This document shows positions 1-50,299 of a DNA stretch of 64,000 nucleotides, piece by piece. The stretch is from a candidate division SR1 bacterium. Its GTDB lineage: Bacteria > Patescibacteriota > Gracilibacteria > Absconditabacterales > Absconditicoccaceae. The notes under the pieces were generated by a model. It searched no databases, was not told the origin of the DNA, and saw only the letters and a program-made list of their open reading frames with translations. Made by a program: the position numbers and the translations under genes. The stretch covers positions 1-64,000 of the forward strand of contig JAPLUV010000024.1 in NCBI GenBank assembly GCA_026397395.1, given 5' to 3'. Each line of letters opens with the position of its first letter. Within the stretch, counting starts at the first letter, position 1.

Positions 1-208
1 TATAGGACCTGCCTACCGGCAGGCAGGCTCGAACCTAATTGTTAGATTCGTTCTCTTTGTGAGAGATAGATACATTATCGACTCATCAATTTTATGGTGG
101 GTGATATAGGACCTGCCTACCGGCAGGCAGGCTCGAACCTAATTGTTAGATTCGTTCTCTTTGTGAGAGATAGATACATTATCGACTCATCAATTTTATG
201 GTGGGTGA
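1..208 (-). pseudogene. Two tandem 104-bp partial copies of tRNA-Val
   Basis: Two direct repeats of 104 bp (1-104 and 105-208) lead straight into the intact tRNA-Val. Each copy keeps the CCA end, acceptor strand and start of the T arm, then carries the palindrome CCTGCCTACCGGCAGGCAGG (8-27 and 112-131) inside the T loop region and loses the rest of the tRNA. They cannot fold as full tRNAs. The second copy overlaps the CCA end of the real gene. Confidence 0.8.
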
Positions 209-275
209 TATAGGACTCGAACCTATGACCCCCTGCTTGTAAGGCAGATGCTCTAACCAACTGAGCTAATCACCC
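199..275 (-). tRNA. tRNA-Val (TAC), CCA encoded
   Basis: A complete cloverleaf is read on the minus strand: acceptor GGGTGAT pairs with ATCACCC, the anticodon loop is CTTACAA giving anticodon TAC, the T arm is intact, and the genome encodes the CCA end. Confidence 0.93.
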
Positions 276-285
276 ATTAATTATT

Positions 286-483
286 CGGTCCCACGGGGAA
301 TCCAATGCGAAGTATAGTCCCGCTTTAGCGGGGAACCCCCAATTACATAGATATATTAACCGTTAGATCGTATAGTTTTTAATCGGTCCCACGGGGAATC
401 CAATGCGAAGCGAAGTCCAGCGAAGCTGGGGAACCCCAATGTTCTACATTGATATATTAACCGTTAGATCGTATAATTTTAAT
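286..483 (-). pseudogene. Two degenerate copies of tRNA-Glu
   Basis: Copies begin at 286 and 384, spaced about 100 bp from each other and from the true gene. Both keep the acceptor and 5' T-arm sequence and the D-arm-like end, but the T-loop to anticodon part is replaced. The replacement contains a short hairpin, CCCGC-ttt-AGCGGG type in the first copy and CCAGC-gaa-GCTGG in the second. Confidence 0.7.
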
Positions 484-555
484 CGGTCCCACGGGGAATC
501 GAACCCCGATTGGAGGATTGAAAGTCCTCTGTCCTAACCGTTAGACGATGAGACC
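484..555 (-). tRNA. tRNA-Glu (TTC)
   Basis: Cloverleaf with acceptor GGTCTCA/TGGGACC and anticodon stem GAGGA/TCCTC around loop CTTTCAA (anticodon TTC). CCA is not encoded. Confidence 0.93.
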
Positions 556-654
556 ACACCTAGAACTTAGAATTTAGTCGGGAGAACTTAGTTTTAGGGA
601 GTCTTTTTATTCTTAATCTAAGGTCTAAGGACTGCTATCTAAAGTCTATAAATT

Positions 655-1297: not shown

Positions 1298-1395
1298 TGG
1301 TTGCGGGGGATGGAGTCGAACCACCTACCTGTCCGGTTCACCGGACCGAGATACCGGGTAAAGAATGCCGATACTCTAAATGTATACTAATAATT
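1298..1395 (-). pseudogene. Degenerate tRNA-fMet copy (downstream side)
   Basis: Starts with the same CCA, acceptor and T-arm sequence as the real fMet gene 98 bp away, then has the hairpin gtccggttcaccggac where the anticodon arm should be, and degenerates after the variable region. Confidence 0.7.
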
Positions 1396-1470
1396 TGGTT
1401 GCGGGGGATGGAGTCGAACCACCTACCTTCGGGTTATGAGCCCGACGAGATACCGTTTCTCTACCCCGCA
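1396..1470 (-). tRNA. Initiator tRNA-fMet (CAT), CCA encoded
   Basis: The anticodon stem TCGGG/CCCGA has the three consecutive G-C pairs typical of initiator tRNAs, with loop CTCATAA (anticodon CAT). It starts TGCGGGGTAGAG, close to the usual bacterial initiator 5' end, and CCA is encoded. Confidence 0.9.
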
Positions 1471-1539: not shown

Positions 1540-1624
1540 CATATTGATCGAGTCAAACTCATCTACCTAGCCGGTTTTGACCGGCTCGAGATACCGTTTC
1601 TCTACCCCGCAATGTCAGGGTATA
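1540..1624 (-). pseudogene. Degenerate tRNA-fMet copy (upstream side)
   Basis: The end of this copy (1593-1624) is almost identical to 1453-1484 in and beside the intact fMet gene. The anticodon arm is replaced by the hairpin agccggttttgaccggct and the T arm is degraded. Confidence 0.7.
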
Positions 1625-1700: not shown

Positions 1701-1730
1701 TTATGTGGGAACAATGATAAGCAGTGAATT

Positions 1731-1811
1731 TACCGGGGACAGGGATCGAACCTGCACACCTCACGGCACTTGGTTCTAAGCCAAGCATGTCTACCATTCC
1801 ATCACCCCGGC
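1731..1811 (-). tRNA. tRNA-Leu (TAG)
   Basis: Acceptor GCCGGGG/CCCCGGT, anticodon stem CTTGG/CCAAG with loop CTTAGAA (anticodon TAG), and a long class II variable arm. Confidence 0.9.
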
Positions 1812-1847
1812 AGGTGTCTTTATGATTGTAAACATACCTTACTTACG

Positions 1848-1893
1848 GCATCCCGACTAGTCGGGACATGTTTACCATTCTATCACCGCAGCT
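1848..1893 (-). pseudogene. tRNA-Leu fragment with a swapped anticodon arm, copy A
   Basis: Reads cggca, then palindrome tcccgactagtcggga, then catgtttaccattctatcacc. The flanks match the tRNA-Leu (TAG) sequence around its anticodon arm, and the palindrome replaces that arm. Confidence 0.7.
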
Positions 1894-1899
1894 GGTGTA

Positions 1900-2148
1900 T
1901 TACAATCATTGATTCATAAATTTTTCTGTATAACTTCTACTTTTTCATTTCTTTAATTTTATTTCGATATGTATGGCCTCTTTGATTGTTGTATATTCTT
2001 TAACACAAAGAAGCTTTACTGGCAAATGTTTTTTAGTCGTTCTATCTTCTCAATTTTGATGTTCATGTAATCTATTCTCAATATTTCTTGTACTTCCTAT
2101 ATAATACTGACCATTATTCATTTCTAAAACATAAACAAATCACTTCAT
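1900..2148 (-). CDS. GIY-YIG domain endonuclease-like protein
   Basis: An 82-residue protein that needs UGA=Gly at four places. It opens MKGFVYVLEMNNGQYYIGST, giving the VYVL and YYIGST strands of the GIY-YIG nuclease fold, with Arg at RNIENRLHEH and Glu in KEAIHIEIKLKKGKSRSYTE. That is the layout of the short stand-alone UPF0213/GIY-YIG proteins, whose role is poorly known but which probably cut DNA. It lies between two tRNA-Leu-derived fragments that both carry the palindrome tcccgactagtcggga. A mobile or homing-type origin is possible but unproven. Confidence 0.75.
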
Positions 2149-2175: not shown

Positions 2176-2245
2176 CACGGCATCCCGACTAGTCGGGACA
2201 TGTCTACCATTCCATTTTACGCGCCTTTTTGGCGTGCACCCCGGC
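2176..2245 (-). pseudogene. tRNA-Leu fragment with swapped arms, copy B
   Basis: Matches tRNA-Leu (TAG) from the anticodon region to the 5' acceptor end (caccccggc). Palindrome tcccgactagtcggga sits at the anticodon arm, and a second hairpin (gcgcctttttggcg) is inserted near the D arm/acceptor junction. Confidence 0.7.
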
Positions 2246-3300: not shown

Positions 3301-4218
3301 ATGAATGAATTAATATATAAAGATACCGGGAGCCTGCCTGCCGGTAGGCAGGAAAGGATAGATACATGGCTTGTGAAGCAGTTTCCTTATACAAGGAGCT
3401 TTTTTCATCATATTATCACCAGAGCTGGTATTTTGGTCAATGAAAAGCCCGTAAAAAAGTCTTATCAGCTCAAAAACGATGATAAAGTGAAGGTAGACGA
3501 TCTCCAGAGGTATCTCGGAAGTGAAATCTTGGAAGAAACGCCAAAGATAGATATCCCTATTATTTTGGAGAAAGATGATTATCTCGTCATCAATAAACCC
3601 AAATGAGTCCTTTCTCATCCCAAAAATCTCCGAGAACTCAGCGAACCATCCGTCGTAGGATTTCTCTATCATAGATACAAAGAGTTACCATCAGTCGGAA
3701 ATTTTATTAGAGCGTGATTGTTACATAGATTAGATAAAGAAACAGACGGACTCATGATTATTGCAAAGACAGAAAAATGACTCGCCCATTTCAAAAACCT
3801 CTTCGACGAAAAGACCCTCGCAGAAGAACATGCAGACAAAGAAAAAGTTCAGTTAAAAAAATTTTATAGAGCAACAAGTCATCTCACACTTGAAGGAGAA
3901 AAATTTTTGGATGATATCAAAGAATTCCCATTCACTATCAGCGAACCCGTCATCGCAAAAGTTCCTTTTACTATGGCAAAACTCGGCATTACTAAAATCT
4001 TACACATAAAAAAGTCTGATCAAACCGTCGCGTTGGAGTTGGAAATTTTGACGGGCAGAACGCATCAAATACGTTATCACCTGTCTCATCACGGATTGCC
4101 AATTATCTGAGATTATTTATATGGGAAAGATGAATGAGTGTCTATGCAACTCACGGCATATAAGTTAATGTTTCAAGATCCCGATGGAGAAATGCAGACA
4201 ATAGAAATTTTAAAATAA
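3301..4218 (+). CDS. RluA/RluD-family pseudouridine synthase
   Basis: A 305-residue enzyme that converts rRNA uridines to pseudouridine. An S4 RNA-binding domain (about 18-75) is followed by the catalytic domain with INKPKG (KPxG motif, Gly is UGA), HRLDKETDG with the catalytic Asp near 144, and GRTHQIRYHL near 250. Five glycines are UGA. At codons 11-17 a 20-bp palindrome (3333-3352) is inserted in frame and encodes LPAGRQ just before the S4 domain; this stretch is absent from normal family members. Length and order otherwise fit. Which uridine it modifies cannot be read from the sequence. Confidence 0.88.
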
Positions 4219-25759: not shown

Positions 25760-25814
25760 TGCACCAAAATAATAGATTAAAAGATATAATTATGATAATT
25801 GACGGCATTATACT

Positions 25815-25903
25815 TGGCTCCAAGGAGACTGAACCACGTAGTCCTACGTGGCGGGCTCTTGACCTCGCCCCTATAATTCATCTTGAGCACATTATTGTAT
25901 ACT
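25815..25903 (-). pseudogene. Degenerate copy of the adjacent tRNA-Met
   Basis: Repeats the acceptor and first half of the T arm (ttggctccaaggagact), then has the palindrome ccacgtagtcctacgtgg where the T loop should be, then gacctcgccc and degenerate sequence. Period to the true gene is 89 bp. The same palindrome, with one base changed, is at about 50042-50060. Confidence 0.75.
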
Positions 25904-25977
25904 TGGCTCCAAGGAGACTCGAACTCCTGACCTCGCCCTTATGAGAGGCGCGCTCTAACCACCTGAGCTACAGAGCC
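25904..25977 (-). tRNA. tRNA with anticodon CAT (elongator Met, or Ile2)
   Basis: Acceptor GGCTCTG/TGGAGCC, anticodon stem CGCCT/GGGCG with loop CTCATAA. It lacks the three G-C pairs of an initiator. Met and lysidine-modified Ile tRNAs both carry CAT, and I cannot separate them with certainty. Confidence 0.88.
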
Positions 25978-25983
25978 AAAGAT

Positions 25984-50279: not shown

Positions 50280-50299
50280 CCCGCCTACCGGCAGGCAGG
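50280..50299. repeat. 20-bp palindrome touching the gatA stop
   Basis: CCCGCCTACCGGCAGGCAGG ends one base before the gatA stop codon (50301-50303). Confidence 0.85.

Follow-up and report, generated by a model that had tools for sequence, protein, structure and literature searches.

Introns, inteins or a position between genes usually keep homing endonucleases from doing harm. Fungal and animal mitochondria contain hairpin elements as well as GIY-YIG elements with GC-rich hairpins, and in the Allomyces case a mitochondrial insert duplicates part of its host gene, which is restored by the carried copy; we know of no mitochondrial example in which two identical hairpins surround a replacement tRNA. 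In T-even phages, a free-standing gene within a tRNA cluster encodes the GIY-YIG homing endonuclease SegB, which cleaves the tRNA region and favors that region's inheritance (PMC2988022); segB can also produce tandem tRNA-Tyr/segB repeats, with a 718-bp unit carrying a truncated segB (PMC13096335). The rRNA genes of CPR bacteria harbor insertions with LAGLIDADG or GIY-YIG homing endonucleases, many of them at stem-loops, in a study that makes no mention of tRNA (PMC11270868). REP/RAYT and Rickettsia palindromic elements are short palindromes scattered through genomes and found within genes too (PMC3733652), and attL/attR tRNA fragments leave one complete and one partial tRNA around an insert (PMC9897764).

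Here we analyze a 64,000-nucleotide stretch of DNA (the window) from a candidate division SR1 bacterium (GCA_026397395.1), whose genome comprises 1.25 Mb in 39 contigs; the window is contig C10 (JAPLUV010000024.1), and its base 1 is the contig's first base. The original prediction for this DNA was that a tRNA-Val gene had been partly duplicated, with a 20-bp palindrome placed in the T loop of each copy.

Results

The Val array occupies window positions 1–275. The intact tRNA-Val(UAC) at 199..275 (−), found by ARAGORN and by Rfam RF00005 (74.6 bits), adjoins a 58-bp spacer at 141..198 (−) and then a tRNA-Val 3' fragment (nt 52–77) at 95..140 (−), in which tRNA nt 60–77 are matched 18/18; on the minus strand, from 140 to 95, this fragment reads AGGTTCGAG (tRNA 52–60), the palindrome, and TCCTATATCACCCACCA (tRNA 61–77). 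A second, identical 3' fragment at 1..36 (−) ends at the contig end, and the spacer is repeated at 37–94. Comparison of units 1–104 and 105–208 gives 100% identity over 104 bp each, and the palindrome CCTGCCTGCCGGTAGGCAGG lies exactly at 8–27 and 112–131, in the T loop of the 3' fragment, as originally claimed on both counts. The fragment keeps the outer end of the tRNA and has its hairpin in a loop, features shared with the tRNA-splitting loci described below; its start is in the T stem, whereas most other fragments start in the next loop inward. No target-site duplication surrounds the palindrome in the Val fragments. Neither a GIY-YIG ORF within the Val units nor a tRNA-Val 5' half upstream was found; the array is interrupted by a contig gap. 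Derivation of the spacer from a decayed tRNA or from the native 3' flank was unsupported (z about 0.1 for both).

Two further units of this array, carrying differing SNPs (GTCGGCAGG; CATCCACCA), open contig C30, which continues beyond them to tRNA-Met and tRNA-Gly. The array thus has at least four units across C30 and C10, and the assembly breaks within it. Because the C30 units are SNP variants, the array is real and no simple duplication artefact. Among same-genus relatives, tRNA-Val is empty in six, and one has next to it a lone, ORF-less 3' fragment whose T-loop hairpin is a different one; in one more, the contig ends at tRNA-Val. Elsewhere in the genome, a degenerate tRNA-Gly fragment (L039 350–400) lies beside tRNA-Gly(UCC), and a run of N there shows that the assembly is poor at this locus too.

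Partial copies on the same strand occur within 450 bp of 12 of the genome's 41 tRNAs, with none on the opposite strand. The loop or the entire arm of a fragment is usually taken by a GC-rich hairpin, the sequence of which varies from tRNA to tRNA. In the window, fragments accompany five tRNAs: Val, Glu, Leu(UAG), which has two 5' fragments, initiator Met, which has one on either side, and the Met at 25.9 kb; in all of these a hairpin fills a loop or a whole arm. This makes four tRNAs besides Val, not the five initially counted, and their hairpins differ in sequence from the Val palindrome. The intact tRNA-Glu(UUC) at 483..556 (−; ARAGORN) has two 3' fragments, found by sequence match at 383..440 (−) and 285..342 (−), with T-loop hairpins CCAGCTTCGCTGG and CCCGCTAAAGCGGG, respectively. 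Initiator tRNA-Met at 1396..1470 (−; ARAGORN) is flanked by a 3' fragment (from about nt 16) at 1298..1355 (−), with GTCCGGTGAACCGGAC in place of the anticodon arm, and by a 5' fragment (nt 1 to about 64) at 1549..1611 (−), with AGCCGGTCAAAACCGGCT in that place, so that the locus is two-sided, without an ORF. Beside tRNA-Leu(UAG) at 1730..1812 (−; ARAGORN), sequence matching places a 5' fragment with TCCCGACTAGTCGGGA for its anticodon arm at 1844..1892 (−) and an outer 5' fragment with the same hairpin at 2176..2240 (−); between them, at 1900..2148 (−), lies a GIY-YIG endonuclease ORF of 82 aa (UGA read as Gly), co-directional with tRNA-Leu and matching Pfam PF01541 (E 4.8e-15). A further sequence match at 25814..25878 (−) is a tRNA-Met 3' fragment (parent 25903–25978) with T-loop hairpin CCACGTAGGACTACGTGG. 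A search near the palindrome at 50280, beside tRNA-Arg(GCG), found no tRNA fragment.

Tandem units occur in this genome at Val, Glu, Ala, and Cys. At the last of these (L226 400–1140), tandem 3' fragments with hairpin CCACGGAGTACTCCGTGG follow tRNA-Cys with a period of about 146 bp and no ORF. As RNA, six window fragments show no folding advantage over shuffles (z 0.5 to −1.9), and an Rfam scan of six loci for group I/II introns returned tRNAs only, with no catalytic intron RNA; Rfam still recognizes some of the hairpin-bearing fragments as tRNA.

The palindrome itself is abundant, with 19 matches in the window (allowing up to 3 mismatches) vs. 0 expected by shuffling. A preference of CCTGCC-type palindromes for pre-existing hairpin loops was rejected, the mean flanking stem of 34 copies genome-wide being 3.3 vs. 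3.7 at random, and insertions of this type have no target-site duplication. The original idea of a single 20-bp palindrome as the agent is not supported: these copies show no such preference, and each tRNA has its own hairpin. Hairpin families found at tRNAs are also present away from them; this includes the CCNCGNAGTNCTNCGNGG family, which sits at T loops and also far from tRNAs, leaving loop-specific families merely suggestive. One palindrome copy (window 3333–3352) falls in the reading frame of a pseudouridine-synthase-like ORF (3301–4218), close to its start, where it contributes to the peptide SLPAGRQ; the LPAGRQ motif had no match in the openly licensed PMC literature. A longer repeat, GGC-palindrome-CTCGCAGTCCGCCATGTTGCTCGGCC, recurs at window 30872 and 52620 and in L242 and L251, and one copy of it on C30 lacks the palindrome, which marks a clean 20-bp insertion with no target duplication. 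At window 12841 and in L241, L243, and L247, the palindrome follows a hairpin of the GGCGAA...TTCGCC type and is followed by CCTAC, forming a composite repeat. Three Y1-type (IS200/RAYT-like) transposases are encoded in the genome (L220–L222); one has a CCCCGTAG-type hairpin nearby. No CCTGCC-type hairpin was found in the flanking stretches analyzed for the three genes, that is, no REP/RAYT arrangement, and a stem of at least 7 is nearby in one Y1 gene only, from another hairpin family. For one of the three genes, the distance to a CCCCGTAGTTCTACGGGG hairpin is about 230 bp.

A Pfam search of the genome found eight GIY-YIG genes, one of which is UvrC, and all seven GIY-YIG proteins of this genome match PF01541. 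Their invariant columns Y6, Y16, R26, H30, and E62 correspond to the family's Tyr, Tyr, Arg, His, and Glu; the closest solved relatives are UPF0213 proteins, followed by SLX1 and I-TevI. Four of the ORFs lie 10–91 bp from an intact tRNA and have a hairpin-bearing fragment on the other side. In-frame UGA codons (in the window ORF at 1900–2148 and in the genome) and an anticodon-UCA tRNA at G000:C36:56842 fit the Gracilibacteria/SR1 code and so point to UGA as glycine (code 25). Away from tRNAs, two GIY-YIG genes of this genome (L041 1441–1728 and L045 1492–1782) are bracketed by GTCATTCTGA / GTCATCCCGG-type inverted repeats and form a separate group of GIY-YIG elements.

To this genome we added 59 related genomes, many of them fragmented, and an independent scan of named genomes. 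Among 148 loci with a GIY-YIG ORF, 53 have it within 120 bp of a tRNA; because the presence of a GIY-YIG gene or of a tRNA was the basis on which loci were selected, this number, like the short-fragment and fragment-end counts below, is no estimate of prevalence. All 53 of these selected ORFs are co-directional with the tRNA, 44/53 have, on the side away from the tRNA, a significant partial copy of it, and their hosts include many Patescibacteria lineages, Bacteroidota, and a member of the Lentisphaerae (Lentisphaerota). On the protein tree, labels change 6 times vs. 42 for shuffled labels, and a single clade with support 94/98 holds 48 of 51 tRNA-abutting GIY-YIG proteins. The amino-acid type of the tRNA requires 24 changes vs. 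36.6 when shuffled (shuffle minimum 31); nuclease lineages thus tend to keep one tRNA type across distant hosts, as a homing element would.

The best-preserved loci have the order host tRNA 5' half, hairpin, short tRNA piece, GIY-YIG ORF and intact tRNA, short tRNA piece, the same hairpin, and host 3' half; examples are Leu(UAG) of G008, Tyr of G006, Glu of G014, Leu(GAG) of G002, and Gln of G040. The break in such full copies is at a tRNA loop, usually of the anticodon arm, with a GC-rich hairpin on both sides, and the ORF encodes a GIY-YIG protein of 80–130 aa, again co-directional with the tRNA. By script, 9/22 two-sided loci have an exactly identical hairpin on both sides vs. 1/426 mismatched locus pairs; leaving out L196, where the match is the T arm, 8 remain. 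The outer halves retain the host flanks, the 5' half the 5' flank and the 3' half the 3' flank. In G008, the 5' half of Leu(UAG) is 10 bp from tRNA-Gln, as is the whole tRNA in three relatives with empty sites, and the sequence following the G008 3' half matches their flank; orthologous tRNA-Leu(UAG) sites are thus both empty and filled among relatives, as is characteristic of homing elements. In the selected loci, 5' fragments reach nt 1 in 44/53 cases and the 3' end in 2/53, while 3' fragments reach the tRNA 3' end in 35/46 and nt 1 in 0/46. A young insertion at tRNA-Lys of G002, with a flanking repeat 90/90 identical, already has its hairpin, which is thus no product of later decay.

Inserts measure about 60–400 bp (under 0.5 kb), and GIY-YIG is the only ORF seen in those inspected. 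The shorter forms include 61 fragments, again from selected loci, that are no more than 200 bp from their tRNA and in most cases 70–120 bp from it. Clean units occur at Asp, Gly, and Ala of the single-contig genome G033; Gly and Ala share a hairpin that was not found elsewhere in G033. The complete same-family genome G013 has no fragments among 32 tRNAs checked, so the element is not universal. At a Bacteroidetes tRNA-His (L162), at least three 5' fragments with hairpin CTCCGATTGAAATCGGAG stand in tandem, and arrays therefore also occur outside Patescibacteria.

These comparisons bear out the derivation of the fragments from the neighboring tRNA, with a hairpin at a loop, and the recurrence of the pattern at other tRNAs and in related genomes, including the orthologous tRNA-Val of one relative with its single 3' fragment. 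The first reading was thus right about the fragments and their loop site; it overlooked the GIY-YIG genes, the two-sided layout, and the intact tRNA within an interrupted host tRNA.

Discussion

At the level of sequence, the loci establish insertion inside tRNA genes, two hairpins, a replacement tRNA, a dedicated GIY-YIG clade, and presence or absence among relatives. From this we infer a homing-type element that would split a tRNA gene and carry the replacement. The Val array keeps neither an ORF nor a 5' half, so its place in this tRNA-splitting family is argued by analogy with the better-preserved loci; it probably descends from such a tRNA-gene mobile element by decay and tandem amplification, as a one-sided copy that lacks the ORF.

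In the mechanism that we envisage, the GIY-YIG nuclease would cut uninterrupted tRNA genes and the break would be repaired from the element copy; the hairpins would remove the cut site from the split tRNA halves, and the carried intact tRNA would keep the cell alive. Recombination between tRNA copies could later delete one half or the ORF, and could amplify short units of about 70–120 bp, of which the Val array, at 104 bp per unit, may be a product. Such amplification is plausible because a GIY-YIG gene beside a tRNA, phage segB, can generate tandem tRNA repeats (PMC13096335). We offer tentatively, and with somewhat more doubt than confidence, the further reading that this is a natural cleave-and-rescue system, in which a putative nuclease destroys essential tRNA genes and spreads by means of its own replacement tRNA while junction hairpins make the halves uncuttable, and which would be widespread in Patescibacteria and present also in Bacteroidota and Lentisphaerota. 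One difficulty is self-immunity, since the carried tRNA retains the loop predicted as the nuclease target, and one carried sequence equals that of an empty relative. No description of such a tRNA-splitting element or its parts was found in openly licensed PMC papers, which is weak evidence of absence.

Alternatively, two independent processes may be at work: short tandem duplications would make spare tRNA copies, REP/RPE-like mobile hairpins would land there because only spare copies tolerate insertion, and the GIY-YIG genes would be passengers. The presence of the same hairpin families away from tRNAs, the lack of target-site duplications at CCTGCC-type insertions, and the three Y1 (RAYT-like) transposases, one near a CCCCGTAG-type hairpin, are all consistent with this account; however, it does not lead one to expect an identical hairpin on both sides of an intact tRNA, a hairpin already present in a young insertion, a tRNA-specific and always co-directional GIY-YIG clade, or such strict fragment ends, and CCTGCC hairpins lack a loop preference genome-wide. 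We consider it unlikely, though worth keeping in view. It is improbable that the fragments are functional RNAs under selection (tRNA-like processing signals, decoys, or regulators): the layout makes co-transcription with the tRNA likely, some hairpin-bearing fragments score as tRNA in Rfam, and hairpin pairing is kept while the sequence differs between species, but presence at orthologous loci is patchy, the six folded window fragments resemble shuffles, and the tRNA half retained varies among fragments. Already disfavored, and very improbable, is the view that the fragments are attR scars of lost tyrosine-recombinase elements at tRNA 3' ends; a partial beside an intact tRNA is indeed the usual signature of such integrations (PMC9897764), but the 53 5' fragments stand against 46 3' fragments rather than 3' ends only, the hairpins go unexplained, and the small inserts show by inspection a GIY-YIG ORF and no integrase. 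That the Val array is an assembly artefact, as its position at a contig end and its two identical visible units might suggest, is scarcely credible, since units on the adjoining contig differ by SNPs and the same pattern lies within contigs at many tRNAs and in other genomes, one of them a single-contig relative with clean units at three tRNAs.

If the homing-type reading is true, splitting an essential tRNA gene and returning a working copy would be a further solution for homing endonucleases, and the element would parallel in nature the rescue-type gene drives that have been designed. The many tRNA fragments of these reduced genomes, which annotation programs can mistake for tRNAs, would also be accounted for, and the element would offer a testable reason for tandem tRNA arrays.

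The proposed element resembles the mitochondrial elements in its GC-rich hairpins, its GIY-YIG genes, and the restoration of a host gene by a carried copy; those elements, however, are mitochondrial and lie in protein genes or intergenic DNA. It differs from attL/attR pairs in size, the inserts being under 0.5 kb here and about 9–23 kb of viral DNA in PMC9897764, and in having both 5' and 3' fragments as well as hairpins. The palindrome copy at window 3333–3352 lies within a gene, as do Rickettsia palindromic elements; in contrast to these and to REP/RAYT systems, various hairpins are here tied to tRNA halves and a GIY-YIG gene. With the CPR rRNA insertions it shares homing-type insertion into conserved noncoding RNA genes in the same broad bacterial group, but those are largely introns removed from RNA, whereas here the gene would be permanently split and replaced. 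SegB is similar in that a GIY-YIG nuclease gene adjoins tRNA genes; it is, however, phage-borne, and the passages on SegB cited here describe no split host tRNA and no junction hairpins.
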